Assembly (NCBI GenBank): GCA_032768795.1
Contig: CP136494.1
Span: 558,001-622,000, forward strand
DNA: 64,000 bases
Direction of reading: 5' to 3'
From: Tremella fuciformis
Taxonomy: Eukaryota; Basidiomycota; Tremellomycetes; Tremellales; Tremellaceae
Both the position numbers and the translations under genes were made by a program. Position 1 is the first letter of the stretch. Each line of letters opens with the position of its first letter. Under the pieces are notes generated by a model that was given only the letters and a program-made list of their open reading frames with translations, ran no database searches and was not told the DNA's origin. This document shows positions 2,813 to 19,974 of the stretch, in pieces.

Positions 2813-5013
2813 ATGGCACCCACTCAGCGTCAAGCAACGACACCTCGCAGACGCACCCCTAGTCGGGCCGCTAAAGGTGCTAGCACGCCACCACGACGGT
2901 CAACCTCTGGATCGTTGTCGCCTCCCCCGCCGTTACCTCGTCCGGCAATCCCTATCATGCCTCTCGATCCCGTCAAAGACTGGCTAGAGAAGGAGCAACC
3001 CACCGATCCCGTCTTCGCCTCAAAGAATCAGATCAATACGGTAAATCAAGTCATCGGTGGGCATGGCATTCAGCCATATGAGCACACTGCCCCTTTTCTC
3101 TTCCCGAATGTCGCTCGAATGTTTGGTCTGCGTCGTTGGAAGCACCGGCGGATCCCTCCGAACAAGAGTCGTGGTCCAAGCTGCGTTGTGGCCGGTCATA
3201 CGAAGGTCTTAAAATGTCATATCACGAGCATACCTGCATTCTTGTACAAGTAAGCACCTCCCCGATCGTTTGTTGAACGAGAAGCGAGACTTATGTCAGA
3301 TTGCCGGGAAAAGAGTGTCAGCAAGCGCGCAAGAGGCATTTTCCCACTCTTATCTTCAACTGGCATATCACCAAAGAGGGCATTCTGGTTGCAAACTCCT
3401 GTTGGTCTTGTTTCACGAGCGGCGATAGCGACTGTCCGGTGAAAGATACGAGGCTTTCAGCTTCCAGCGCGCCGCAAGACGGTGAGGACAACGACCTAGT
3501 GGCATCTTCAGTCCATGGTCAATCCCCTGACAATCGAACGAGTAGTCCTGCAGCTCTGCCGACCGACGGCAAAGTGGACGACCTTCCGCCCGACCCGGCC
3601 AGCGAAAGTAACGCCCTTTTCGCACCAAAGAAACCCTCCCTCGCTCGTTCGGCGTCTCAAGCTGAGCTCGATCCGGTGCCGTTTCGCAGATTTCTTCTTA
3701 ACACATCCACCAATTCACAAGAGGATCGCGCACTCAAACCTCTCCAACTCGGTGAGAGCCTCGGGCAGCGCGAATCGGGGGATGGCAAGAGAATTCTGTC
3801 CGATTCCCATCTTCAACCCTCGCCTACCATCTTTCCGAATAAACGTCGCGCGGTATCCGAAGGTGCTCAGCAGGATTGGCGGACAGTTCTGGCGAATGAG
3901 CAACAACGACCTCCAAGCGTATCGCCGGATGCGCGAGGTATTCACACTCCTGGTCATGACAAGCCTCATCGTGCCCCCAACATCGTCCTTCACGCCCCTC
4001 TGTCGCATGGTCGTTCCCCTATCGCTCCGCTTGTCCCGCAAACCCCGTCTCCGCAACCTCGCCCAACTTCAAAGCCTCCTCCCCTCCCGCTGCATCTGGT
4101 CGCCATCGACGACATTGGTAGCAACCTGAGGGCACTCCGAGAGCAGTTCTCCTCCACCGTTCGTGTAGCCCGAGAGGCTTACGAAGCTGCCGATCGTGCC
4201 AAAAAGACGGCGATATCTGCCCTCGAGAGGACTCAATCAGCGTGTCAATCCTTGAAGGCGGCAGCCGAGAGCGAAATGCAATCCATCGATGCTATGCGAT
4301 TGGACCGGGACAGGAATGCTTCTCAAGTCGACGTCCTGAAAGTCCGCGTCGCAGACAACACGAAGGAGATCAAGCAGAAGTCGGCCAAAATAGACGAATT
4401 GAATAAGCAGCTTGAATTCTTGCAGACCACCTTAAATGCTGAAAAGGTTCGACAGGCTTCTTTCGATTCTGTCATTGCCGATGCGGTCAACGAGGCACAG
4501 AAGGCAAAGGAGGAGTCGCGGCAGCTGTCGGCAGAAGTCGATCGCTTGCAGGAGGCCAATCGACAGAGCCAATCCCGTCTCCGCGAAGTGGCCGCTCGCC
4601 AACTCACCCTCTCACGCGCCCTCAGCGATGCCGGAAAAGAGAACGACAATCTGTTAACACAGATCGGTACACTGCGTTCAGCTCTTGAAGGCTTCGCCGG
4701 CGATAAAATCGACGACCTCCTCGCGTCATCCTCTCGTCCGATCGATTCAGAGCCGCAGGTGCCCGTAGCACAGGACGAATCGAGACCCCTCCAGCAACAG
4801 CAGCGGGCAGAAGAGGTCCCGGTGCGAGACTCGCTGACTCCCATTCAATCCATGGCCGAGCCTCAAGTTGTACCTCCGGCGAGCTCTTTGGCTGAGCAAG
4901 CAGCATCTAAGCGTGACATGCCTACTGTCACAAACGACCTGTCTCAACAAGCTCAATTCTTGCCTGGAGCTCTGCCCAGTCCTGATATGTCCAAGGATCA
5001 ATCGGACCGATAA
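2813..5013 (+). CDS. coiled-coil accessory protein of the MULE
   Basis: The function is unknown. Exon 1 (2813-3249) opens with a basic, Ser/Pro/Thr-rich stretch. An intron 3250-3299 (GTAAGC...CAG) joins in frame to exon 2 (3300-5013), giving about 716 residues. The central-N region contains NSCWSCFTSGDSDC, a C-x2-C-x7-C cluster that could bind zinc. The middle is low-complexity, and residues about 430-600 form a long heptad-rich coiled coil with many Ala, Glu, Arg and Gln. The tail is Pro/Gln-rich. The gene starts about 330 bp inside the left terminus and ends 124 bp from the convergent end of the giant gene, so it is cargo or a second transposition protein. No DNA-binding domain was recognised. 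Confidence 0.6.
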
Positions 5014-5137: not shown

Positions 5138-8100
5138 CTATGAAAGGTTCATGCTCTCTTTCCATTCCCGAATCCAGCTCCAACTCCAGGTGTCGTTTGG
5201 AACTACGCCCTTTTTGCGCGTGGACGAGAAGGCGAGTTGTTTAGCCTCCTCGAGAAGAAGAATAAGTATCGCGTCACGAAGCAGGTGCGGGGCAACAACA
5301 CTGTTCGCATGAGGCGGCACTTCCAACCCCAAGGCCTCCACGCATGGCCGGAGATGTTGCAACATGAGTATTACCGCTGTGGCCGCCAAAGGCCCACACG
5401 AGCTGTGGTCTGGCTGCGACACCCAATGAAGCTTGTCTCGCAAATCCTGGGCTTCAGCGAGATGGATGGCCGCGCCGGCAAGCTTACCGGCGTATTAGGC
5501 GCAAAGATCCAATCGTCATTCTGGTCCGGTCGGACCCAACCCCTATGAGCTTCATAGTCTAGCCGATCGTGAAGAAGCCTAGTCCATCGCTTCCAATCAG
5601 TCATCACCCCATTTCCACATGTCAAACTCACCGCCTTCAGCTGAGGGTAGTCATACTGGCCCCCGTCACCATCAAAGGGTATGACTAAACGCGCCGGACC
5701 GAAGATCGCCAGGCAGATGAAATGAGCGTTGAACGCTACACTGATCACTCCAACGGTAATTCTGCGACGCCAAGATGAATCGGGCCCGAGGGCTGGCCAA
5801 GGTACTGACGTGTATTGCGATGGATCCTGCAAAATTTCCTGTAGAAGGGGAACAGCCACAGAGTATCGGTAACCCCAGGGTAGAAGATTCCTCACATAGC
5901 GTACTGCCATTGGAGGCCCTCTCAACTTTGTGTCGTCCGCCGCCAAACGTTCCAGTCGATATTGCGCTGTAATGCATACGGCGTCCAAGAGCGATGAGCT
6001 CCACCAGCTTTGCGTATCCAAGAAGTGGCCGAGATCGTCTCGATCGACAGTCGAGTATGGTACACCGCAGTGCAGTCCGCGAGAGAATATGTCGGTTGGT
6101 GGAAGGCCCCTGAGAGCGCGGAACACCGATGCCAGAAGCTGAGTCCGACCTTTATCCGGGGAAGGGGATAACGCCAAAGTTTTCGCAGGGTCGGGATCCA
6201 GTCGAACCATGAGTTGACCGCGGGATCGCGATTCCGGAGTCTCCCAGATGATTTGCTCACGATATCGAGTGACAGCTCGATCCACCAATGCGTCCTCCTC
6301 GCTCTGGGATAGGCGCCGATGGGGATCGAAGCTATTGAGCTGCATTCCATCCCACTTGAAGAAGACATATAGAGAGGGGCCACCTGTGGGATCGCCTTGC
6401 CCTTTTCTGAAAGCGGAATTGTAGCTGTTTGTATATCTTGAAGGAGGCTGTTTCACTTGGGCGGGCTGGGGAGTCGGACTGTCATCCGCAAGCCATATGC
6501 TTGGGCGAGCCGAGGGAACTTTATCTCTTGGCTGAGACTTCTGGTTTGACGGAGTGTACAGCGAGACCGGGCGCTGAGGTGTCTGATTGCTTGTACTGCG
6601 AGGGACGCTGGATCCAGTGTATTGCACCGAGGGTGAACGAGAGAGCCGATTGAGCCTATCGAAGAGCGGCTCAGCTCGGATCGGGGTTTGATTGGCCATG
6701 TTGAGAGGATCGAGTCGGAGCACCGCAGATGACTGTCCTGGCCATGTCATTGGACTCGACCCTGCGGCCTCAGCTCGGACAGGGGTCTGATTGGCGATGT
6801 CGAGAGGATCGAGTCGGAGCACCGCAGATGACTGTCCTGGCCATGTCATCGAACTCGACCCTGCGGCCTCAGCTCGGACAGGAGTCTGATTGGCGATGTC
6901 GAGAGGATCGAGTCTGAGCGTCCCAGACGACTCTCCTGGCCATGTCTTTGGACTCGCTTCTGCGGGAGAGGTGACCCTGGATGCAGGAAATATCAAGGGC
7001 GAGCTCCCAATCGGCTGTATCTCTGGCGTGCCATCATATCGCTGAGGCCTGGTAGAGAAACTGGTTTCCGGCTTGGGGTTGGGACGGATCGGGGTCCCAA
7101 TCGATGTCCATTCAGCAGTCGATGGGAACGTTGAAATTCGGTCGGTGGGTACGCGGATAGGTTTGCGGATACGGAGGATGGCCGTAGTAGTATCCGAAGA
7201 CGATGCTACTGCGGCAGGCCTTGAAGAGGATTGCATGTGATTTGAGTTGGCCAGGGTATCGATGTGAATCAGTGGCAGACTGGCGGAGGTCGGGCCGACG
7301 AAGCCTCCAGCAGCCGAGGCACTGAATGTCGGCTCGATCCCCACGTTGGACGCATTTGAAGCCGCAGGTGCTTCGGGTTCCACGGGAATACGGGTCGCAA
7401 GTGCCGGAGCAGTGCTAATCGGTGGCACAATGGGCTCATTCGACAGGACGGGATAAGATCCTGTATCTACAGACTGAGTTGGCACGACTGCCTCGAGATT
7501 CGAAGGAGCAGATTGGGATGCGGCCTCAGTATCCGGAGGAGGCACTATGAAATTTTCAAGCGGCCCTTTGAGATTCGAGTAATCCGTGTCAGGCGGGGGC
7601 GCTCGAAGTGCCGGCATGGCCTCTGGGACCTACACGCATCAGACACTCAAAGGTTCTGCTAGAGCCACTTACGTGCACGTAATTTGCATTTGATCGCTCG
7701 TAGAAAGCCATCACAGGATAGCGGCCAGCGTGAAAAGCCTCTCGTCCCACCCCCCTTGCCCTCCGAACGCGGTCATCGTCCATGACCCAGTATACCTCCT
7801 CGTGCAGGATGATTGCGATGTAATGACCAGCGCTGGGATCGTCCCCGATTCGGCAGATAAGGCCTTTCAACCTCCACGGTCGGAGGTCGGTGCCGTAATG
7901 AAAGCGCTCCGGTATCGCGAAGACACGATCGACGACTAACCTGGTGCAAGACGTGCTGTCGACCTCCTCCACTCGAGCAGGCCAAACGATCTGGATGGTA
8001 AAAAGATTGCAGGAGAATACTGCATTTCAAATGACCTGAGGTGTATGCCGTGGTTCGTGTAGGCAAAAAAAGGGAACACAATCAGCCTCGATCGACTGCT

Positions 8101-8352
8101 CTGCCATCTGAATCAGAGTGGCATTAGGGTTCTGTGCCGGATAGACCAGATATGCAGGTAGGTGGTGACCTTCGTGGACGTGCTCGCCGTCGGCCTCATG
8201 GCGCTGATAATGAACGAAACCGCACTTCATGGCCGTGTGAAAGATCCGTCTGTCGGGATCGAAATCGATCTGATTGTCGAGGTATTCCAAAAGATTCCCG
8301 TAGAACTCGGCGGTATCGCCCATGGCCGTTGGGGAGTCAATGAGGCCGGCAG
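5138..8352 (-). CDS. C-terminal part of the MULE giant gene: USP histidine box plus Ulp1-like C48 protease
   Basis: These exons follow the intron that holds the gypsy element. Exon 8352-8036 and exon 7990-7673 carry the second half of a C19 ubiquitin-specific protease, with the His box GHYIAIIL and VYWVMDDDRV. Phase-0 introns of 45 nt (7991-8035) and 43 nt (7630-7672) then run without a stop into a long Ser/Pro-rich linker with three 33-residue repeats. A C48 Ulp1/SENP-like domain follows: WWSSSLLDAV, the His region NAHFICLAIF, an acidic turn IPFDGDGG and, after a 41-nt intron (5447-5487), the Gln/Cys box QPDHSSCGPLAA. All catalytic positions expected for both protease families are present. 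That these exons form one transcript with the transposase is inferred from frame-consistent junctions. Confidence 0.72.
6673..6965 (-). repeat. three tandem 33-residue (99-bp) repeats in the linker
   Basis: Units begin at about 6673, 6772 and 6871. Each encodes a version of TWPGQSSAVLRLDPLDIANQ. The two units nearest the middle are almost identical in DNA, suggesting a recent tandem duplication. The unit lies in the linker between the USP and Ulp1 domains. Confidence 0.85.
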
Positions 8353-8363
8353 CTGATTTGTCA

Positions 8364-8368
8364 GCTTA
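8364..8368. repeat. gypsy target-site duplication, left copy (GCTTA)
   Basis: The same 5-mer follows the right LTR at 14766-14770. Five bases is normal for gypsy integrases. Confidence 0.85.
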
Positions 8369-8877
8369 TGTCATGACTCGTGATAAGGAAAAGGAGAAAA
8401 CATGACTCATGGAATGATGTGTTATTTGGAGAACGTTTATCAGTTGATTAGTCAGCCTCCACCTTGCTTAGTAAGCCTCCACCTCTGAGGCATGTTTCCT
8501 ATTGGCTAGTTCAAAGAGCTTAGTCAGCCTCCACCTTTGAGGCATTTTTCCTATTGGCTAGCTTGTAGTTTCCCACGGTGGTCTAAGTGAGGCATTTATC
8601 TGATTGGTCAGTAAATCCCTCACGACCCCTCTTTAATTAGTCCTACCTTTTAGATGTGAAGGGTATAAAAGGAGGCCTCATCTGGCCCTTCCCCCCTTCT
8701 TCTTCAGCAATGGATCTTGTGTCTTCTCTTCACACAAAGTCACTCAGTTGGTCTTAACCCAACACTTCAGTCACCTCAGTACCTAAGGCAGTCATCAAGC
8801 TCTACGAGCCAGAGACTAAACCCCTTCAGTACCCAAGGCAGACCTCTCGCTACCGCAGACTACCCGCAGGCGTGACA
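8369..8877 (+). repeat. gypsy 5' LTR
   Basis: 509 bp, starting TGTCATGACTCG and ending GCGTGACA. It contains internal near-duplicates: the TTAGTCAGCCTCCACC...CCTATTGGCTAG block occurs twice, and TTCAGTACC(T/C)AAGGCAG occurs twice. Confidence 0.95.
8664..8670 (+). promoter_or_regulatory. TATA box in the 5' LTR
   Basis: TATAAAA lies in the second half of the LTR, followed by a pyrimidine-rich stretch that would suit transcription initiation of the genomic RNA. The same site is at 14552-14558 in the 3' LTR. Confidence 0.6.
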
Positions 8878-9295
8878 GTATCCATTGCTCAACCCCTTTA
8901 GTCCTTGCTCGTCCCTCGTCCTCTCGTCAACAACATTTTCGCATTTTTGCCACCCAAGGCTTTCCCACGGCTACCCTCGACACCTCTGGCAAAAAGATCA
9001 TTCTGGTCACCATTGTGACTTGAACCAAGGACCTCTCGTCATCATCAATCCTACTTTCAACAGCACCTTCGATCACTTCGACATTGTCATCACCCCTCTC
9101 GTCACCATCATTTGGATGCTCATCACCACCAAAAACTCGATCCACCCTCGACTTTAGGAATTGCTTCTACATAGTAGAAGAACTTGATCTAAGGCCTTCT
9201 TACTTTCTTTCATCCATACCATCATCAATCCCTTACAATCCTCTCAGATACCCTAAAGCTCCTGCTGACACTCAGATCACTCCATCCCTGTCACC
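8878..9295 (+). other. gypsy leader between 5' LTR and gag
   Basis: This is an untranslated leader of about 418 bp. It is rich in C and T, and no TGG-starting tRNA primer-binding site is evident next to the LTR. It presumably holds packaging or self-priming signals. Confidence 0.5.
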
Positions 9296-10315
9296 ATGGA
9301 ATCTGATAACGCCCAGCTCAATGCTGAGCAAGCGTTGCAAGCTCAGCACGACATGATCCTACAGCTGCAGGCTCAGATCAATGCCCTTCAAGTCACCAAC
9401 AACACCAGGCCTGAGCATGCTAAGGAGCCGAAGATCTCTCATCCACCGCCTTTTAATGGCCGTAAGGATCAGACTTTGGAGTTCCTAGCCAAGTGCAACA
9501 TGGTCTTTGCTGTTCAACCTCGTACCTACGCCACCGACGTCACTCGTATCGCCTTTGCGACCAACCTCCTGAAGGAAGAAGCCTACCGATGGGTCTTACC
9601 TTACCTTGGCATGGATGCAGAGGATCAGCCCTCTTGGCTCCATGACTGGGAGGACTTCCAAATCGAATTTAAGAAGTACTTTGGCGACGCCAACTTGGCT
9701 GAGACATCTCGTTTCAAGCTACGCAACCTCCGACAGGCAGGATCAGCCAGCCTCTACGCCACAGAATTCCAGCGCCACGCAGCCTATGTGCACTGGAACA
9801 ACGAGACAAAGAAGCAGAACTTCTTTGATGGCCTCAAGGACGATGTCAAGGATCGACTCCTTGCCCCTGGCAAATTCAAGGACTACGAGGCTCTGGTCAC
9901 CGCCGCCATTGAGTATGACGACCTTCTCTATCAAAGGCGACACACAAACAACAACCCTCGACCTCAAATCAACACTCAGCGCCCCATCAACAGCATCAAC
10001 TACCCACGCTCTGGCGCTACAACTACAAGGGTCAACACCTTTGTCCCGCGTACAACGACTACGACATTCTCTCCTACTCCCATGGAGATTGATGCTGCTC
10101 AGACACGCCAGGCCTATGGACCAATCTCTCAGGCTGAGCGTGAGCGACGCATGAAGGAGAACCTCTGCAACTATTGTGGCAAGCCTGGTCACAAGGCCTT
10201 TGAGTGCCGTGCTGCTCAGCGACGCCGTGAGCAGAGGGCTCAAATCAATGCTGCCGCCAAGGTCACCACTATTACCTCCGACAACAAGGCAAAAAACACG
10301 CAGCCCCAGGCCTAA
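9296..10315 (+). CDS. gag: gypsy Gag
   Basis: A 339-residue structural protein. It begins with a short coiled coil (ENAEQALQAQHDMILQLQAQ-like region), then a retrotransposon Gag capsid domain with PPPFNGRKDQTLEFL and a run of aromatic/acidic motifs (W..D...F). It ends with one CCHC zinc knuckle, CNYCGKPGHKAFEC, at about residues 285-300 and a basic tail. The start is the ATG at 9296. The last codons contain a slippery heptamer that would allow shifting into pol. Confidence 0.92.
   Translation: MESDNAQLNAEQALQAQHDMILQLQAQINALQVTNNTRPEHAKEPKISHPPPFNGRKDQTLEFLAKCNMVFAVQPRTYATDVTRIAFATNLLKEEAYRWVLPYLGMDAEDQPSWLHDWEDFQIEFKKYFGDANLAETSRFKLRNLRQAGSASLYATEFQRHAAYVHWNNETKKQNFFDGLKDDVKDRLLAPGKFKDYEALVTAAIEYDDLLYQRRHTNNNPRPQINTQRPINSINYPRSGATTTRVNTFVPRTTTTTFSPTPMEIDAAQTRQAYGPISQAERERRMKENLCNYCGKPGHKAFECRAAQRRREQRAQINAAAKVTTITSDNKAKNTQPQA
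10291..10297 (+). promoter_or_regulatory. -1 ribosomal frameshift heptamer A AAA AAC
   Basis: In the gag frame the sequence reads GCA AAA AAC ACG, a perfect X XXY YYZ slippery site 15 nt before the gag stop. Slipping back one base moves translation exactly into the pol frame, which is open from here onward. Pol has no ATG near its start, which supports use of the shift. Confidence 0.75.
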
Positions 10316-13300
10316 GCGTGCCCCCACCTCTGGGGCTCTCAAAGGGGCACAAAACGGTACATCACACACAACATTGGATAACGGCAACATCGCTTCAGTC
10401 AACAATACTTCCCGCTTCACCCAAGGATCACCTATGCCTTCCCATCACGCTCAAGTATGGGAAAACCAACTACGACACACTTGCTATGATTGATTCTGGT
10501 GCCACAGCCAGCTTCATCAACGCAAACTTCCTCAACACTACGGACATACCAAGGATACTCAAGGATGAGCCTTTAGAGGTCTCAGTCATTGATGGACGTC
10601 CAATTTCTTCTGGCGCCATCACACACCACACCGAACCCATCACCTTGTGCCTTCCAGGTCATGAAGAGACGCTCTCTCTTGACATCACATCACTTGGCAC
10701 ATACCCCATCATCCTCGGCCTACCATGGCTCTCTCGGCACAACCCAAGCATTGATTGGTCCCGTCAGACCATCAAGTTCTCCTCTTTGCCCTGCCTGGAG
10801 CAGTGCAGCAGGTCAGACACACCTGTAGAGGCAGATTCTGCTCCTCAGTCACCAAGGAATCCTCGAAACTCAAGGAACTCAAGGACCCCAAGGACACCAA
10901 GGAAAACGAGCTCAGGTAACCTGCCCAGCACCAATGCTGCAGGTACGCCATCACCCAAGGACACAAACAACAACACCCACGGAACAACAACCTCGACCCC
11001 AAGGATATCACTCATCAGTGCCTCTGCCTTCCGGACAGCTATGAAAACGGCAGAGATCTATGGCATTACCACTACGGCTCAAGTCTCAGGTCTCATCGAC
11101 CCTCAACCTGCTCAGGAAGACGATGACGACACTATGGAACCCGACCTTCAGCAACTCAAGGAAATCATCCCCGCAGACTTCCATGACCATTTGGAAGTAT
11201 TCAGAAAGTCCAACTCCGATAAGCTCCCAGAGCACAGTGCCTATGATCATGCCATAACACTTGAAGGCAATGCGCAGCCCAAGTTTGGTCCGATCTACAG
11301 CCTCTCTGAAGTAGAGCTCAAGGCTTTGGACGAGTACCTCAAGGAAAACCTCAAGAAAGGATTCATACAACCAAGTTCAAGCCCGGCTGGCTCTCCCATC
11401 CTCTTTGTCAAGAAGCCAGATGGATCCCTCCGACTATGCGTTGACTACCGACAGCTCAACAGCATCACCAGGAAAAATCGCTACCCACTTCCATTGATAC
11501 AGGAATCTTTGGACAGGCTCAAAGGAGCTTCATGGTTCAGCAAAATCGACCTACGTGCCGCCTACAACCTTGTCCGCATTGCCAAAGGCGATGAATGGAA
11601 AACGGCATTCCGCACACGCTATGGACACTACGAGTACCTTGTAATGCCTTTTGGGCTTACAAATGCGCCCGCGTCATTCCAGAATCTCATCAATGATGTC
11701 CTCAGAGACTTCTTGGATGTCTTTGTCATCGTATACCTGGACGACATCCTCATCTTCAGCAAATCAAAGGACGAACATATCGACCACGTCAAGCAAGTCT
11801 TGCAACGACTGCAAGAGCATCATCTTTGGGCTAAGGCAGAAAAGTGCACCTTCTTCAAGCATGAGGTTGACTTCCTAGGCTACCTTGTCTCTGACAAAGG
11901 AGTCAGAATGGACCCTCACAAAGTTGAAGCTGTCACCAACTGGCCACCGCCAAAATCAGTTCATGATGTTCAAGTCTTTCTTGGCTTTGCCAACTTCTAC
12001 CGACGTTTCATCAAGGCATATTCCAAGGTCACGGCACCCCTCACACAGCTCCTACGCAAAGGAGTCGACTTTGAATGGGGCAATACAGCACAAAACGCCT
12101 TCGACACATTGAAAGCTGCTTTCACCAGCGCTCCCATCCTCCAGCACTTTCAACCAGGGAAACCCATCGTCATGGAGACAGACGCATCCGACTTTGCTAT
12201 TGCAGGCGTCCTGTCACACACCTCAGAAAATTCCAAGGAGCTTCACCCTATTGCATATTACTCCCGGAAGCTTCAACCAGCGGAACTCAACTACGAAATC
12301 TACGACAAGGAAATGCTTGCCATAGTGGAAGCATTCAAACACTGGCGACCATACCTCGAAGGAGCAAAGGAAATTACAGTCTACACCGACCACAAGAACC
12401 TGGAATACTTCACGACATCAAAGGTGCTCAACAGACGACAAGCACGTTGGGCAGAACTCTTAGCAAACTTTGACTTCAAAATCCACTACCGACCTGGAGA
12501 AAAGATGGGCAAACCCGACGCCCTGACCAGGAGGTCAGACCTTCAAGGGGGGAGTAGAGCTGCAGACGCACCTCCACATACACTCCTCAAACCAGGACAA
12601 TTCATCATTGGCGCCCTCACACCTACCGATACTTCCGACACCCCAGTGAAATCCGATTTGATGGCCAGAATAGAGCAACTTCAGCCTGAGGACCCTGTCC
12701 TTAAAGAGCTTTTGCCTTATCTGCATCATCCAGATCGACCTGTTCCCAGCACACTCCAAGGAAAATTCAAGGACTTCAGCCTCGACAACAACATCATCCG
12801 ATACAACAAGAAGATCTACATCCCGGATAACTACGATCTCAAGATTGACCTGCTTCATCAGAGTCATAATGCACCTACCGCAGGACACTATGGTCAACTC
12901 AAGACCTATCAGCTCCTCTCACGACACTATTACTTCCCAGGAATACGACAATTCACCAACACCTATGTGGACGGTTGTCACACTTGCGCACGGAACAAGG
13001 TACCTCGACACAAACCCTATGGCCCATTACAACCACTCCCAATACCGACAAAACCTTGGCAATCAATATCTATGGATGCCATTGTTAAACTACCCACTTC
13101 CAACGGCTACGACTGCATTATGGTCTTTGTTGATCGCTTCACAAAACAAGCCCACTTCATACCTTTCAAGGAAGAAGGCTTTGATGCGCCCAACCTGGCC
13201 ACAATGTTCAGACAACACATTTGGCGACTCCATGGACTTCCTAAGGACATTGTTTCCGACCGCGGCCCAATCTTCAACTCTCAATTCTGGCGAGCCTTTG

Positions 13301-14244
13301 TCAAAGGACTAGGCATCACACCAAACTTCTCTACGGCCTTCCATCCGCAATCAGATGGACAGACAGAGAGAGTCAATCAAGTCTTGGAACACTACCTTCG
13401 ATCCTTCTGCAACTATGATCAAGCAAATTGGTCCTCACTCTTGGACTTAGCAGAGTACAGTTACAACAACTCTGTTCACACATCGACAAAGTTCACACCC
13501 TTTGAAGCCAACTATGGCTATCACCCCAACGACACACTCTCGCCATGGCCATCCTCAGAAACCCAGACAGTCCCAGCAGTGGACTCACACCTTGTCACTC
13601 TGCGCTCCCTACACCAAACGCTTGCCAACAACATCAAATCAGCACAGGAGCACTACACCAAATTCTACAACCGGAAAATCAAGGAAATCACCAACAAGGA
13701 CAAGCCTCTGTTCAAAGTAGGCGATCAGGTCTTCCTCAATCGCAGGAACATACAGACCTTGCGACCGTCTCTCAAACTGGATCAAAGGATGCTAGGGCCC
13801 TTCAAAATCATTGAAGCAACATCATCTCCTCTGGCATTCAAACTCGACCTCCCACCATCAATGGCAATACATCCAGTCTTTCACGTCAACCTCTTGGAGC
13901 CAATGCGCAAGGGTCATCCTCAGCAACCACAGGACCCTCCACCGCGCATTGAAATCAATGGTCAAGAAGAATACATTGTCGACCGCATCCTGGATTCACG
14001 CATCAGCTCAGACAATGGTTATGACTACCTTGTCAGCTGGAAGGACTACTCCAGTGCCCACAATTCATGGGAACCCTGGGAGAATGTTCATCACACCACG
14101 GCCTACAACAAATTCCATCGACAACACCTAAAGGATCCTCAACAACATTTCCCTCCAACCAGAGCACACCGCCAAGCTCCAACTCAAACAAACACCAAAA
14201 GATCTGAACGCAGATCACCAAGGCTCAGAGGACTTCGCCCTTAG
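10298..14244 (+). CDS. pol: gypsy Pol (PR-RT-RH-INT-chromodomain)
   Basis: An open frame of about 1,310 residues in the -1 frame relative to gag. Its domains in order are: aspartic protease (MIDSGATASF), reverse transcriptase (FVKKPDGSLRLCVDYRQLN, MPFGLTNAP, catalytic YLDDIL), RNase H (METDASDFAIAGVL), integrase with an HHCC zinc region (HQSHN...HYG...CHTC), the DDE core beginning SMDAIV and DRG, and a C-terminal chromodomain (EYIVDRILD, YLVSWKDY, WEPWENV). No internal stop is present. The chromodomain places it in the chromovirus branch, whose members often target heterochromatin. Confidence 0.95.
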
Positions 14245-14256
14245 AGGGGGAGCTCC

Positions 14257-14765
14257 TGTCATGACTCGTGATAAGGAAAAGGAGAAAACATGACTCATGG
14301 AATGATGTGTTATTTGGAGAACGTTTATCAGTTGATTAGTCAGCCTCCACCTTGCTTAGTAAGCCTCCACCTCTGAGGCATGTTTCCTATTGGCTAGTTC
14401 AAAGAGCTTAGTCAGCCTCCACCTTTGAGGCATTTTTCCTATTGGCTAGCTTGTAGTTTCCCACGGTGGTCTAAGTGAGGCATTTATCTGATTGGTCAGT
14501 AAATCCCTCACGACCCCTCTTTAATTAGTCCTACCTTTTAGATGTGAAGGGTATAAAAGGAGGCCTCATCTGGCCCTTCCCCCCTTCTTCTTCAGCAATG
14601 GATCTTGTGTCTTCTCTTCACACAAAGTCACTCAGTTGGTCTTAACCCAACACTTCAGTCACCTCAGTACCTAAGGCAGTCATCAAGCTCTACGAGCCAG
14701 AGACTAAACCCCTTCAGTACCCAAGGCAGACCTCTCGCTACCGCAGACTACCCGCAGGCGTGACA
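14257..14765 (+). repeat. gypsy 3' LTR
   Basis: Same length (509 bp) and, by visual comparison, the same sequence as the 5' LTR. Confidence 0.95.
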
Positions 14766-14770
14766 GCTTA
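14766..14770. repeat. gypsy target-site duplication, right copy (GCTTA)
   Basis: Matches 8364-8368 and joins intron sequence of the minus-strand MULE gene. Confidence 0.85.
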
Positions 14771-14796
14771 GGCGAGCACGGTAACACCCGGCTCAC

Positions 14797-17640
14797 AGTG
14801 CATGATGGATCTTAGATCCGGGTAGGCTCGGACTTCTCCGCCGGCAAGAGCAATTTGAATCTCGTCGAGTAGAGTGTACACGTCATTCGGAGGATGAATG
14901 CCGCCCCACCATCCCTGCCCGCCAACTAAACCGATCTCTTCCTTTACGCTGTCGCAAGTGCCGCGCCACGTATCTAAATGAGCTAGAACTTGTATCATTG
15001 CGCTTATGTAGCAATCGTTTCCGGTATTTCTTATACCGGCAGGTTTGAGGAAGGAATCGATATGATCTTTGACCAAATCGGGGAGATGGATCTTGCTGCG
15101 CCGAGCGGTCGGAACCGGGGCGTTGGCCGCACTGACAGGTGGAGGAACGGCTCTGGGCTCGGGGTCCACCCGATTGGGCTTCTTCTTCGCCCGAGCGGGA
15201 TTGAGCGGCCGGATCTTGGACGGCGCTCCAGGAGCCGACTGAGTGTTCGAATCGACATCAAAAACATCTGGAGGCCCTGCTGCCACAGTTGGCGTCTTCG
15301 GTGGCTGGTAACGCCTGGAAATCGGGGATGACATTTGCGGCGCATCAACAATGCAGCCTTCCTCTTCTCCCTCTGAGGCCGAGCTCTCGTATGCGATACT
15401 ATCAACATCATCTGCAGCTGCAGATTTCGCCGGGAAGAACCGAGGATCGGGGTCGTTCAGGTCTTCTGCGTTCTCCACGCGCTTTCCCCAGTATTCCTCA
15501 AAGTCGTCGCGGTCGTCCACGCTTTTGTCAGAATCGTTGCTCAAGGCATCACCGGCATCGTCATCGGCATCGGTAGGATCGCCGATTTTTAGCTTCCTCA
15601 AGCGCGTTTCGATGACGGCCATATTCTCTTCAAAATCCAGAACTGGCCCAAGCAGCTCGAAAGAAACCATCGCCCACAGATGCAGGCATCGCTTGCCAGT
15701 ACCATGAAAGTAGGGGCAAGTGCAGGTCTCTCGTCCTCGCGGCGACCGACCACAATGAGAGACTGAGCTCGCCCCCGTGCGGCGTCTGGGGGGAAATACA
15801 GCGAAGACATCTGCTCCGAACAGATGTTGGTGGCGGGCATCAACCTTCTCGATGGGACACGGGCGGATGCAGTCAGTTTCCCAGCGATGTAAGCCCAAGA
15901 AGAGTTGTTGCTGTAAATGCGGATCGGGTCTAGCGGCCTCTGGACTGAGATCTTCGTAGAAGGGGAAATAGGCGTCGATCAAGATGATCAAGAGTCGATC
16001 TAGACTACATCGAGTCAGTCGAGATAGCCAGTGACATTGCTTCACTCACCGACGATTAACTCGACAGCTGAGGAAGACCCTATCGAACGTGCGGAAGCAA
16101 GCTTCGCTATAATTATTCGTCGACCAGGGGCCATCTCGAGTGACGCCGGCTGGCATTCCATAGTCGACGGTGCTTGGTCTCCATGATGTTGAGAACCAGG
16201 TCGCATTCAGATATCTGGACAGTCGTCCCCAAACTTCGGTGGAGGTGCAGGCTTCGACAGTCTCACCCAAAGTCGCGAAATAGGTGTCCCATTCGTCTTC
16301 TTCTGGGCAGCGTTGGACGGTTCGGATGGCATCTAGAATTTCCTGTATCTTCGCATCGCGGGTCTGGACGCCGTATGAGGACAAAAATTTGCGCAACTGC
16401 GATTGACAGGCTTGCATCATGTGGAACTGACAAGCACGGATGGGTGTCGATGGCAGGACCTCCTGTATAGCGTTGCGTTCAGCTTCGGAGGCATCGATCA
16501 TCATGAATCGCGGGCTCAGGCCGTCTTGAAGGAAAATGTCGCACCTCGTACGTAGCTCTTGCTGAGAGATGCCCGGGATGATGGGAGTGTATGCACCGTT
16601 GACGATCTGCTGAGCGGTCTCTTTACAAGCCCGCGCGAATTCGGACAACAGGAAAGCGTAGGCGGTCTGATCGGAATGGGCTGACACCATAGCAGCAACT
16701 GCGATGGATGAGGCCGGAATCCAATGAGCGAATGAGAACTCACGAGGAATCATGTGATGCTGCTCGTTCAAGGTGACCAACATCGTCAACGGGCATTTGA
16801 ACGCGTTTTTGTTCCTGTACGAGGAGTCCATGTACATGCCCATGCGAAACACTTGAAGAATGGCAGTCACACGGGCCAGCGGTGGCGCGACCACACATTC
16901 CATCCGTTGTTCGGTGTGCGTCTGTTCTGCAGCACCTGCACCTCTCTTCTTCTTTTTCTTTTTGCGATCAGGCAGTTCATTGAGTAGGAATTTCGGACCC
17001 CGCTCTCTACACCATTAGCTTCACGGAATGATGAGTGGGAGGAATGATGAGTGGGACACTGACGCGATGATACTATCAGGGCGATTTCGGGTTATGATTT
17101 CAAGGGCAGCTAATGGATTTGAATGAATCTTGTAGACGTTACCCGCCGTTACCATGGCCGTGTTGTACTCGTTGTTGCCCGGTAATCGATGAGGACAGTG
17201 GGTTTTTACCCACTGAGCATGCGGATCTCTAGTCATAACAGTCTTTTTAAACCCTACGGTCAGCTAGCTACATCAAAAGCAAGGTCCCGATGCTCACACA
17301 GCTTCAACCGGGACTTTGTCATGGAAAAGCCAGACGCGAGCTCGTGAAGGATGTGGCGCAGATATGGCGACACCTTCAGCCTTGATTTGTTCTGTACTTG
17401 TCGATGAATGTCGTTACTGAGCATAGTGATGGTGCAAGCTTGCCGCGCGCACTGCTCTCTGGTCATTTCCACCTTGCGTTCAGCTGAGCCATTGACAATG
17501 TCTGACCTCACGGTAAGATACGCGCCACAACCGATATGTGTCCGGCTTCCGGTCATCCTGCCTTCATCATCCCACTCATCCTCGATGAACTCATCGTCGG
17601 GGTCATGGTCTAGACTACCGTCCTGATCGTCTATGTCCAT
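14797..17640 (-). CDS. central part of the MULE giant gene: DDE transposase, SWIM finger, USP cysteine box
   Basis: Mutator-like transposase. The first exon (17640-17298) has an acidic start and GCGAYLTV, the second half of a WRKY/GCM1-like zinc cluster. Introns 17254-17297 (44 nt) and 17003-17059 (57 nt) lead to the catalytic core: MGMYMDSSYRNK (first Asp), MMIDASEAERNAI (second Asp), then CQFHMMQACQ, the C-x2-H of MULE transposases, and a TNNYSEACFRTFDR tail. After intron 16005-16049 comes a SWIM zinc finger (CTCPYFHGTGKRCLHLWAM). A Ser/Asp-rich linker follows, then the C19 cysteine box GNDCYISAMIQVLAHL. The exon ends at 14797 with a GTGAGC donor. The intron that follows contains the gypsy element, and the protein continues at 8352 with the USP His box. 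Confidence 0.82.
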
Positions 17641-17715
17641 GTCTTCGGAGAGATCCGCCTCCCTCGGCCAGCCACCATCACCAGCCTCTTCGTCGTTTAG
17701 TTCACCCCCAGTATC

Positions 17716-19200
17716 TCATCGAGACGATCCGGCCCTATCCGAAGAGCCGATCTTGCGGAGAGTCGATGCGGGCGAAGGGGCGAGTACACGCTCAGCATCA
17801 TCAATCTGCTTGCCTTTCCCTTTCGAAAAAGAGTGCGAAGCCGCTCTGGCGGACAGGGCCGCCAGGTTGCGCTTTATAGACGGGTCACTCCGGCGCGTCG
17901 GCGCAAGGCTTTTGGGCTGTTGCCTGGCCAGATTGAAGCCTTTGGCGTACTGGAAGAGTTCTTGCCCAATGGTGTCGCTAGTCGCCACCACCTGGGGTAT
18001 ATGGTCTTCGGGGCGCTTTTGGGCTCTGCACATACCGTTGCATTCGTATGTGACACGCCATATAAGGCTCTGGCCATCCAGATCTTCTGAATCTTCAGCA
18101 CCGTGGAGAGGATCCGATCTGAGGTGCATGCGGAGTCGGCGAGCTCGAATGTCGTTCGGATACACGCCAGGACCATCGAGCCACTCTATCGACGCTGAAG
18201 ACGACAGGACGTGCCTCTTTAGAACGTAGTCGTGATCCTGAAAAGTGAGCCTCTCTGATTGGCTTCGCCCAAAAAAAGACCTTACAAGTGCATCAAAGAA
18301 GCGAATGAGATCAGGTAGTTGTCTTTCATGACTGACATAACCCTGCTCTGAACTGATGTCGAGTCTACCCGGTCTCATCTTTGTACGAACAACCGTTATG
18401 CCGGGTGTTTGGCATGGCTTGTTGTAGTCATGATGGTGGACCGGCACGCCAGAGGGAGGATTATGACTAGACAAGTCTCCCGCGATGCGTATATCTGGAT
18501 TGGCGAAAAACTGCTGAGCCCATGTATCATAGCCGACCTGTTTGCTAGAAGACGGTGTGGTGGTTGACGGTGAACTGTCGACCGGTCGCAATGGGGTTGC
18601 CTGGCTGCTGACCGGGGCTTTTGAAACCACCTTGGGAGGTTTGGAGGGAGTGAAAGATGCGTCCGATGCAGACGTTTCTTGCGTTGTAGATTCGTAGGAG
18701 GATGTCGAGGCATCACCCAATGGGATATTCCCTTGGGAAGATGAGGTTGGAGGGGAAGTCAAGGGCTCATCTGACACGATGTGGTCATCGCGGGTCCGAT
18801 TCGCGAATGGCGTAGGTCGATGCTCGACAAGAGATGGACTTTCGACCGGAGGAGACAGGGTCCCAGGCAGGACGCTGGGCGGGGTGGCATGATGCGTGAC
18901 AATGGGGACTTGTCCGCTGATGGGGTCCGGCTGATGGTCCTGATGGTCCTGCGAAGAAGAAGCGGAAAGGCCGGCGGACCGCTCGATGCGAATCTGGGGC
19001 GGTGCTGGCTCTTCGGGACGCACCTGGGAATGGCCCGCACTCCCAGGCTGCAACGTCGAGGCGGACTTGGAAGGCTTGGACTTGCTGTTGGGCAGGATTG
19101 ATGGACGACCTCGTTTCCGCGGGCGGGTGCCAGATGTGATGAGGCCAGCCGGAATCTGACCAACAGGGGGCTCTTTTGGGCGAAACCTTTTAGCGGTCAT
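17716..19200 (-). CDS. N-terminal part of the MULE giant gene: AT-hook and first half of zinc cluster
   Basis: An open frame of 494 residues from the ATG at 19200 (another in-frame ATG lies at 19287). It has an AT-hook core (RKRGRPS) near residue 30, then a long Ser/Pro/Thr-rich low-complexity region. The last 200 residues are more ordered, ending with YVLKRHVL and WRVTYECNGMC. YECNG...C looks like the first half of the zinc cluster whose second half (GCGAYL) lies in the next exon. The frame ends in TGA at 17716-17718, but the same frame reopens at once and reaches the ATG at 17640 25 codons later. It is therefore probably one gene with either a spliced 63-nt intron (GTCTCG...CCGAG) or a nonsense mutation. 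Confidence 0.65.
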   Translation of the reverse strand: MTAKRFRPKEPPVGQIPAGLITSGTRPRKRGRPSILPNSKSKPSKSASTLQPGSAGHSQVRPEEPAPPQIRIERSAGLSASSSQDHQDHQPDPISGQVPIVTHHATPPSVLPGTLSPPVESPSLVEHRPTPFANRTRDDHIVSDEPLTSPPTSSSQGNIPLGDASTSSYESTTQETSASDASFTPSKPPKVVSKAPVSSQATPLRPVDSSPSTTTPSSSKQVGYDTWAQQFFANPDIRIAGDLSSHNPPSGVPVHHHDYNKPCQTPGITVVRTKMRPGRLDISSEQGYVSHERQLPDLIRFFDALVRSFFGRSQSERLTFQDHDYVLKRHVLSSSASIEWLDGPGVYPNDIRARRLRMHLRSDPLHGAEDSEDLDGQSLIWRVTYECNGMCRAQKRPEDHIPQVVATSDTIGQELFQYAKGFNLARQQPKSLAPTRRSDPSIKRNLAALSARAASHSFSKGKGKQIDDAERVLAPSPASTLRKIGSSDRAGSSR

Positions 19201-19745: not shown

Positions 19746-19974
19746 GAAAAATCACTAACGAGAGATTTTCATTGCTAAACGTGCGATTTTCACGTCTAAC
19801 ATGGGATTTTCACGTCTAGCTTACGATTATTCCTTCTAAGCGTACGATTATTCCTCCCTAATGCGGGGTTTCTATCCGTAACATCCGACTTTTTCTTCTT
19901 AGCTTCCGGAATAATGCTCGGCTCTGAAGTAGCGAGCGGATAAATATTGTTAACGTCCGATTATTTGATACCGC
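19746..19974 (-). repeat. right terminal/subterminal motif array of the MULE
   Basis: Read on the minus strand, at least seven degenerate copies of the left-end motif are seen: AATCGGACGTTAA (outermost), AGTCGGATGTTAC, AATCGTACGCTTAG, AATCGTAAGCTAG, AATCCCATGTTAG, AATCGCACGTTTAG and AATCTCTCGTTAG. They are spaced roughly 18-25 bp apart through the inner part. The orientation is inverted relative to the left end. This is a larger array than on the left. Confidence 0.7.

Follow-up and report, generated by a model that had tools for sequence, protein, structure and literature searches.

Can one transposon gene join a Mutator-like element (MULE) transposase to both a ubiquitin-type and a SUMO-type protease on the same chain? 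The question is raised by a gene on the minus strand of a 64,000-nucleotide stretch of Tremella fuciformis DNA (GCA_032768795.1, CP136494.1, 558,001-622,000 of the forward strand; the window, meaning this whole stretch). An earlier note on this DNA had proposed that the gene encodes, in order, a MULE core, a SWIM finger, a ubiquitin-specific protease (USP, family C19) and an Ulp1-type protease (family C48). Several unrelated transposons are known to carry ubiquitin or SUMO proteases; a mobile family with both proteases on its transposase makes their role testable, and suggests that the two modifiers may act as a host barrier to DNA transposition, here probably in fungi. Searching the 28.1-Mb assembly (11 contigs), we found the transposase and both protease domains on one chain, in a multi-copy family that recently moved as a unit, with catalytic positions kept and with protease cores more constrained than linkers. 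We read the window gene as one old copy of an autonomous MULE family in which the protease pair lies downstream on the transposase and would be active in cis, at a probability of roughly 0.6.

The gene runs on the minus strand from an ATG at 19200 to a stop at 5138 (5138..19200, including a gypsy insertion; N-terminal intron positions approximate), and the order along the chain is AT-hook, zinc-ligand region, MULE, SWIM, USP, linker and C48-like domain. The predicted product has about 2,370 residues, modelled as a first half of 1,359 and a second half of 1,017-1,038 residues, the latter counting a tail past the true stop. A motif search placed RKRGRPS, which we take to be AT-hook-like, near the N-terminus (19099..19119). 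The MULE exon (16050..17006, with one more short intron possible), located by its PF10551 match and a motif table, holds D1 in MDSSYRN (~16837), D2 in MMIDASEAE (~16504) and E in STNNYSEA (~16123), presumably the DDE triad of the family. In the following exon (14788..16004), CTCPYF..GKRCLHLWA, from 15724, forms the SWIM finger and NTGNDCY the USP Cys box. A phase-1 intron (8353..14787), whose donor, acceptor and phase were read and which is enlarged by the gypsy element, separates this exon from the middle part of the USP (MGDTAEFYGNLLEYLD) and its His box GHYIAI...YWVMDD (7673..8352; matched to Pfam UCH, with one short intron of uncertain ends). The linker and the part of the C48-like domain with His and Asp follow (5488..7629, identified with the family profile A4 against Ulp1/SENP), then a 41-nt phase-0 intron, GTAAGC...CAG, within that domain (5447..5487), and the last exon through the stop, with Gln and Cys in QPDHSSCGP (5138..5446; motif table and gene model). 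The codons at catalytic positions, read back from the sequence, are Cys 15013-15011 and His 7825-7823 in the USP, and His 5724-5722, Asp 5673-5671, Gln 5416-5414 and Cys 5398-5396 in the C48-like domain. Every piece named in the earlier note was present within the limits it gave. The window copy keeps each visible catalytic position, as the note had claimed, and the note's length of about 2,400 residues was right within intron uncertainty.

To what extent is this architecture shared by other copies? Searches of the genome gave 22 matches for the C48 exon, 15 for the USP His exon and 17 for the SWIM-USP Cys exon. Grouped by eye, the USP His and C48 parts occupy the same 15 loci, where parts 9 kb apart on C8 and parts 11 kb apart in the copy c1 were each counted as one locus. 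The SWIM-USP Cys exon was matched at 14 of these 15 (C5:54-57k had no match), and two further loci, C4:127612 and C11:263442, match this exon alone. Three copies were read directly (c1b, L053; c3a; c4a): transposase, SWIM and USP Cys box share one open frame, and the His box of the USP falls in the next one together with the C48 His and Asp, which bears out the proposal of one gene with the same domain order in related copies. In c1b, a 662-residue frame covers D2 and E of the MULE core, the SWIM finger and the Cys box of the USP, and the 672-residue frame after it covers the USP His box and all of the C48 His, Asp, Gln and Cys; spliced, c1b reads as 1,322 residues with no stop. The junction of the USP halves is a phase-1 intron in all three copies checked: c1b (42 nt, GTGAGT..CAG), c3a (50 nt) and the window, where the gypsy insertion enlarges it. 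Since the USP fold spans both open-frame blocks, the transposase and C48 parts are not neighbouring separate genes, and none of the family copies at hand has its USP and Ulp1 domains in two different genes. Gene models built from start codons end early in c1b (464 residues) and c4a (473 residues).

The transposase features recur in the same way. The PF10551 score is 34.4 bits for the window exon and 35.5 bits for spliced c3a (cut-off 27.6); the open frame of c1b, which is without D1, reaches 22.8 bits. Nine distinct copies are covered over the D1, D2 and E motifs, and all nine have them (in c1b, D1 was found by eye; the stretch of c10 is incomplete there). RGRP or PGRP was found in eight of nine distinct copies searched, c5b being the exception with the pattern used, and the SWIM pattern CxC...GKxCxHxWA is complete in seven of nine; with Pfam SWIM, the window finger scores 19.5 bits and that of c1b 16.8 (cut-off 19.6). 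A whole-genome UCH search placed five of its 29 places at family loci (c5b, c1b, C4:1810k, C8:1534k and c4b), and inspection by eye of the 36 MULE places outside the family revealed no UCH place within 10 kb.

Two pairs of near-identical copies document mobility, their element ends being taken as the points where similarity stops. The copies c3a (C3:207k) and c5a (C5:719k) have 10.3 kb in common at 99.8%, and c4a (C4:1825k) and c2a (C2:15k) have 8.9 kb in common at 98.8%. All four recent copies end in inverted repeats that are 90.6-91.8% alike (61-64 bp in c3a/c5a, ~100 bp in c4a/c2a) and are flanked by direct repeats of 9-10 bp, inside the 8-11 bp range of MULE target duplications, with exact edges uncertain by a few bases; the transposase gene blocks tested between c3a and c5a were identical in four of four cases. 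Near-identical pairs with terminal inverted repeats (TIRs) and target duplications indicate that the whole fusion moves as a unit.

The first protease domain is, by sequence comparison, of the C19 deubiquitinase type, a predicted identity that we consider settled. UCH (PF00443) matches all eight aligned USP domains at E <= 0.001 (best 6e-17), and UCH_1 matches three; the c3a domain covers PF00443 positions 2-238 of 254 with 38.4 bits (cut-off 23.9), and the window halves, scored apart, reach 18.3 bits for the Cys box and 21.9 bits for the His box. A profile of the eight domains (alignment A2) retrieved 109 PDB sequences at E <= 1, and the best 60 of the 109 are all ubiquitin or ubiquitin-like (Ubl) carboxyl-terminal hydrolases, with USP12 at the top (1.1e-16) and USP46 and USP7 likewise at E ~1e-16. 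The domains diverge widely, with 21-44% identity to the first row, and the Cys and His are invariant in all eight. In the pair of Asp residues (DD) after the His, the second is invariant (8/8) and the first, which we take to be the one catalytic in USP7, is Asp in seven of eight.

The second protease domain is likely a C48 peptidase, as judged from its catalytic positions and from profile comparisons. Removal of the 41-nt intron in the window restores the 18-codon spacing seen in the intronless c1b and c4a. This spacing is obtainable in all eight copies, directly in these two and through a GT-AG intron in the other six (the acceptor of c1 is weak). A one-base frameshift as the source of the 95-nt spacing from WIFAP to Gln in the window was ruled out by the phase-0 intron. 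An alignment of seven C48-like domains (A1) shows no variation at the His, Asp, Gln and Cys positions. The window copy, the near-copies c2a, c5a and c10 and the loci C4:1809k, C8 and C5:54k were kept out of A1, A2 and A4, and c1 also out of A1 and A4 on account of its insertion; A4 comprises six of the seven A1 rows, with c4b left out. Row 1 of A1 opens with three erroneous letters, and the A1 and A4 rows c3a, c11 and c5b contain some residues of the phase-0 intron, as perhaps do c4b and c6 with a few, the catalytic columns being unaffected.

Pfam, which the earlier note had named as a check, recognised the window gene in part: the MULE exon exceeded its cut-off, the SWIM finger fell just under its own, the UCH halves, scored apart, fell under theirs, and the scan of the window exons gave no C48 match. 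Among the seven family domains, Peptidase_C48 matched two at E <= 1, the best at 4.5e-4 and 20.5 bits against a cut-off of 20.7. The sole PDB row at E <= 1 for the C48-like profile is an Ulp1-like SUMO protease (0.27). Complementarily, hhalign of A4 against an Ulp1/SENP set, made of the host's own Ulp1-like gene, SENP1 and SENP2, gave E 1.2e-4 and a probability of 55.5% with the four catalytic positions aligned; two controls gave 0.5% and 0.4%. The host gene (C1:8288601-8289700, L054) is a separate Ulp1/SENP-like gene of two exons, the only match of a whole-genome PF02902 search, and finds SENP1 in the PDB at 1.6e-39. We infer that the C48-like domain of the element would act on SUMO.

Constraint on the coding parts was assessed from the ratio of nonsynonymous to synonymous change (pN/pS) in a comparison of the window with c1, the copy nearest to it in the own-genome searches of the C48, USP His and SWIM-USP Cys exons. 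With synonymous changes near saturation, only the ranking of the values counts: MULE has 0.28 and SWIM 0.16; the three USP parts have 0.38, 0.35 and 0.23, the four C48 parts 0.50, 0.17, 0.29 and 0.39, and the SWIM-USP and USP-C48 linkers 0.46 and 0.64. The active-site blocks are constrained about as much as the transposase, and the linkers less. Selection on both proteases, which had been argued from the window alone, is in keeping with the constraint seen on both domains, most parts of which rank below the linkers. The recent pairs have too few changes to judge, with 18 synonymous and 14 nonsynonymous in three blocks of c4a/c2a and 6 and 8 in two blocks of c3a/c10.

What would the proteases do for the element? 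In the reading that we favour, both domains would be enzymatically active and would act in cis, at DNA ends held by the transposase, where they could free the transposase, as well as host repair or silencing proteins close by, of ubiquitin and SUMO (or a similar modifier). The transposase would thereby be spared extraction or degradation, and the excision and insertion steps could be completed. The architecture suggests an element that strips its host's protein tags while moving. Tentatively, and with more doubt than assent, we also consider a paired eraser against SUMO-targeted ubiquitylation, in which host SUMO E3s and SUMO-targeted ubiquitin ligases would put mixed chains on the DNA-bound transposase, leading to its extraction and destruction. 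The Ulp1-like domain would remove the SUMO base and the USP the ubiquitin, and only a chain with both domains could keep the transposase on its DNA. If true, this would account for both domains staying joined at all 15 loci where either was detected.

Several observations weigh against active, cis-acting proteases on an autonomous element. The first Asp of the USP pair is Ser in c1b, and the GHY of the USP His box is AHN in c4b and NHY in c4a. None of the seven C48-like domains scanned reaches the Pfam cut-off, one of the six in A4 matches at E <= 0.05, and the whole-genome PF02902 search matches no copy of the family; a single-sequence structure prediction of the window C48 exon was uninformative, with a mean predicted local distance difference test score (pLDDT) of 34. 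The C48 region of c1 is split by ~11 kb, and the USP and C48 parts of the C8 copy lie ~9 kb apart. The SWIM His is absent from c3a and c4a, copies of the mobile pairs (CSC...QCCAL and CTC...QCRAL; L036+L037 and L040+L041). A TIR search of the window copy found none, and in the same search of six other copies, compared with shuffles, none was clearly above (weakly, 38 vs 33 in c5b and 33 vs 32 in c4b). The pS values between the window and c1 are near saturation at 0.67-0.86, one C48 part, at a pN/pS of 0.50, is under no stronger constraint than a linker, and nonsynonymous changes exceed synonymous ones in some recent blocks (8 vs 5 in the second block of c3a/c10, 5 vs 4 in the first block of c4a/c2a).

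Among the alternatives, the one that survives best is possible, if on the unlikely side: the proteases might mainly lift ubiquitin- or SUMO-dependent chromatin silencing at the element's own copies and have little role in cut-and-paste. Precedent for this comes from the VANC and KIU proteins of Arabidopsis Vandal MULEs, described in the portion of the source concerned as anti-silencing, where the KIU proteins carry Ulp1 and promote loss of DNA methylation from related elements (PMC13317346). In the T. fuciformis family, the N-terminal AT-hook and zinc-ligand region could likewise recognise the element's own DNA; the proteases here, however, are part of the transposase chain rather than of a separate gene.

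Self-processing is an improbable account, in which the C48-like domain would cut the chain in its low-complexity linkers and free the transposase and the USP as separate proteins, in the way that adenain-type proteases of its clan process the polyproteins of viruses. CE-clan proteases that process polyproteins are known, and the linkers on either side of the USP are long and evolve faster; this account nevertheless leaves the USP domain itself unexplained, and the single PDB row found at E <= 1 with the C48-like profile is a SUMO protease.

It is very unlikely that the protease parts are captured host gene pieces without function, as in Pack-MULEs (transduplication). Capture of gene fragments is frequent in MULEs, according to the passages concerned (PMC2528002, PMC13317346), and the excess of nonsynonymous changes in the second c3a/c10 block would fit such passengers. 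Against this stand the recurrence of one architecture at 15 loci, the retention of USP Cys and His in 8/8 and of C48 His, Asp, Gln and Cys in 7/7 domains despite the low USP identity, and the stronger constraint on most protease parts than on the linkers. Finally, the idea that transposase, USP and Ulp1 are separate neighbours merged by a gene-model artefact, to which the several introns placed from sequence alone lend some colour, is refuted on the copies read, where one part of the USP fold lies with the transposase and the other with the C48-like domain, and where c1b, c3a and the window all have a phase-1 intron between the two.

Two features of the locus had gone unmentioned in the earlier note. 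The first is a 6.4-kb Ty3/gypsy element (8369..14764, plus strand) with 508-bp TG...CA long terminal repeats (LTRs) at 8369-8876 and 14257-14764 and a long open frame at 10231-14244. Its LTRs show 2 mismatches in a 516-base match and hence mark it as young, and its target duplication GCTTA lies at 8364-8368 and 14765-14769. The element sits antisense to the transposase within the conserved intron between the USP Cys-box and His-box exons; disruption of the coding sequence as such by the insertion was ruled out by this intronic site, although the enlarged intron may affect splicing. Other interruptions were seen in c1 (C1:8403297-8414543, L025-L027), the closest relative, whose C48-like domain contains ~11 kb of other DNA with internal 48-bp inverted repeats, and in the copy at C8:1525-1537k, with a gap of ~9 kb between its USP and C48 parts. 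Nested insertions seem to accumulate in older copies.

The second feature is a gene convergent to the transposase (3277-5013, plus strand), which has a cysteine-containing N-terminus (SCWSCF) and a coiled-coil-like C-terminus. It has 11 matches in the genome, itself included; relatives adjoin six other family loci (C1, C5:56k, C6, C4:2251k, C11 and C5:2135k), and the convergent gene lies inside the mobile unit of both recent pairs, with minus-strand counterparts identified from sequence at L041:614-2614 and at ~9051-10685 of the joined stretch L036+L037. Its Cys motif reads C-x2/3-[CA] ... C..C[WF], followed by the coiled-coil-like tail, and in the two copies scanned no Pfam family scored above its cut-off. 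In MuDR, mudrA and mudrB converge inside the TIRs. Here too a transposase and a second gene are convergent within TIRs, and the second gene, cysteine-containing, coiled-coil-like and likened by layout alone, is a possible counterpart of mudrB.

Smaller features accompany the gene and its relatives. Three 99-nt tandem repeats, 83-93% alike and recovered by a repeat search, encode a 33-residue repeat of the USP-C48 linker (6670..6966, minus strand). Upstream of the gene, at 19757-19890, lies an array of ~7 degenerate 20-nt units that start with TAA and have GATT-like cores. It could be a subterminal repeat of the element; against this, of eight other copies searched on both strands, six do not have the pattern and two have it once. 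The copy c4b (C4:2248001-2266000, L032+L033, reverse strand) shows by eye, in the region that separates its USP from its C48-like domain (frames ~7667-12529), ~5 zinc-finger repeats of a GATA-like CxxC...C type, and c5b at least one similar motif. An open reading frame beside one family copy is presumably Fzo1-like; together with the short GT-AG introns and the gypsy-type LTR element, it points to a fungal host, probably a basidiomycete.

Relatives beyond this genome were sought by protein searches. The SWIM-USP Cys exon of the window found two proteins from public contigs, one with 48% identity over 43% of the query and one with 41% over 42%. By eye, both contain a stretch resembling SWIM, followed by a USP Cys box, and end soon after this box, near the site of the phase-1 intron here; in Pfam scans one gave a weak SWIM match (14.3 bits) and the other no match. 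When c3a and the 672-residue frame of c1b served as queries, with the ~8,000 candidates sharing most words scored, no relative was returned, and an NCBIfam scan gave nothing useful.

How does the family compare with known systems? Ulp1 domains occur in KDZ elements of fungi. Ulp1 has also been reported in Mutator elements of hydra, lancelet and plants (PMC2836005), and giant transposons, one of them with ubiquitin-related domains, have been reviewed (PMC6431247). The earlier note knew of no described element with USP and Ulp1 on a transposase. This stood in that no MULE chain with both C19 and C48 was found in searches of the open-licence literature; it passed over the close precedents of Ginger1, a Trichomonas C19 protein and Helitrons with VTD and OTU domains.

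The plant ULP1 MULEs (KI-MULE/Kaonashi of Arabidopsis and elements of melon, rice and grapevine) share with the present family the combination of a Mutator-superfamily element and an Ulp1-type cysteine protease (PMC2528002, PMC13317346). The ULP domain of KI-MULE is reversed relative to mudrA, and melon and rice elements have it in either orientation, whereas it lies here on the same chain and strand; the parts of these sources on plant ULP1 MULEs describe none with a USP. Ginger1 transposases resemble the present chain in their C-terminal protease, Ulp1 or OTU, for which a repair role during or after transposition was proposed (PMC2836005). Theirs is a gypsy-integrase-like transposase, characterised by an H2C2 finger and a GPY/F motif, with one protease or the other, whereas the chain described here has a MULE match and both a USP and an Ulp1-like domain. 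Trichomonas vaginalis XP_001314237.1, cited in the same paper, likewise combines C19 and a transposase in one protein; its transposase domain is a different one (transposase_11), and the passage citing it mentions no Ulp1. VTD domains, which include active deubiquitinases related to those of Helitrons, were shown to cleave ubiquitin chains, and 121 VTD-containing Helitrons also have OTU (PMC9741609), so that two deubiquitinase-type domains share one transposon protein much as two proteases do here. These elements, in contrast, use a rolling-circle RepHel and other protease families, and no SUMO-type protease is mentioned in the corresponding part of that source. MULEs with Ulp1, another transposase with C19 and a Helitron with two deubiquitinases were already known; what the T. 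fuciformis family adds, as far as these literature searches show, is C19 together with a C48-like domain on one MULE chain.

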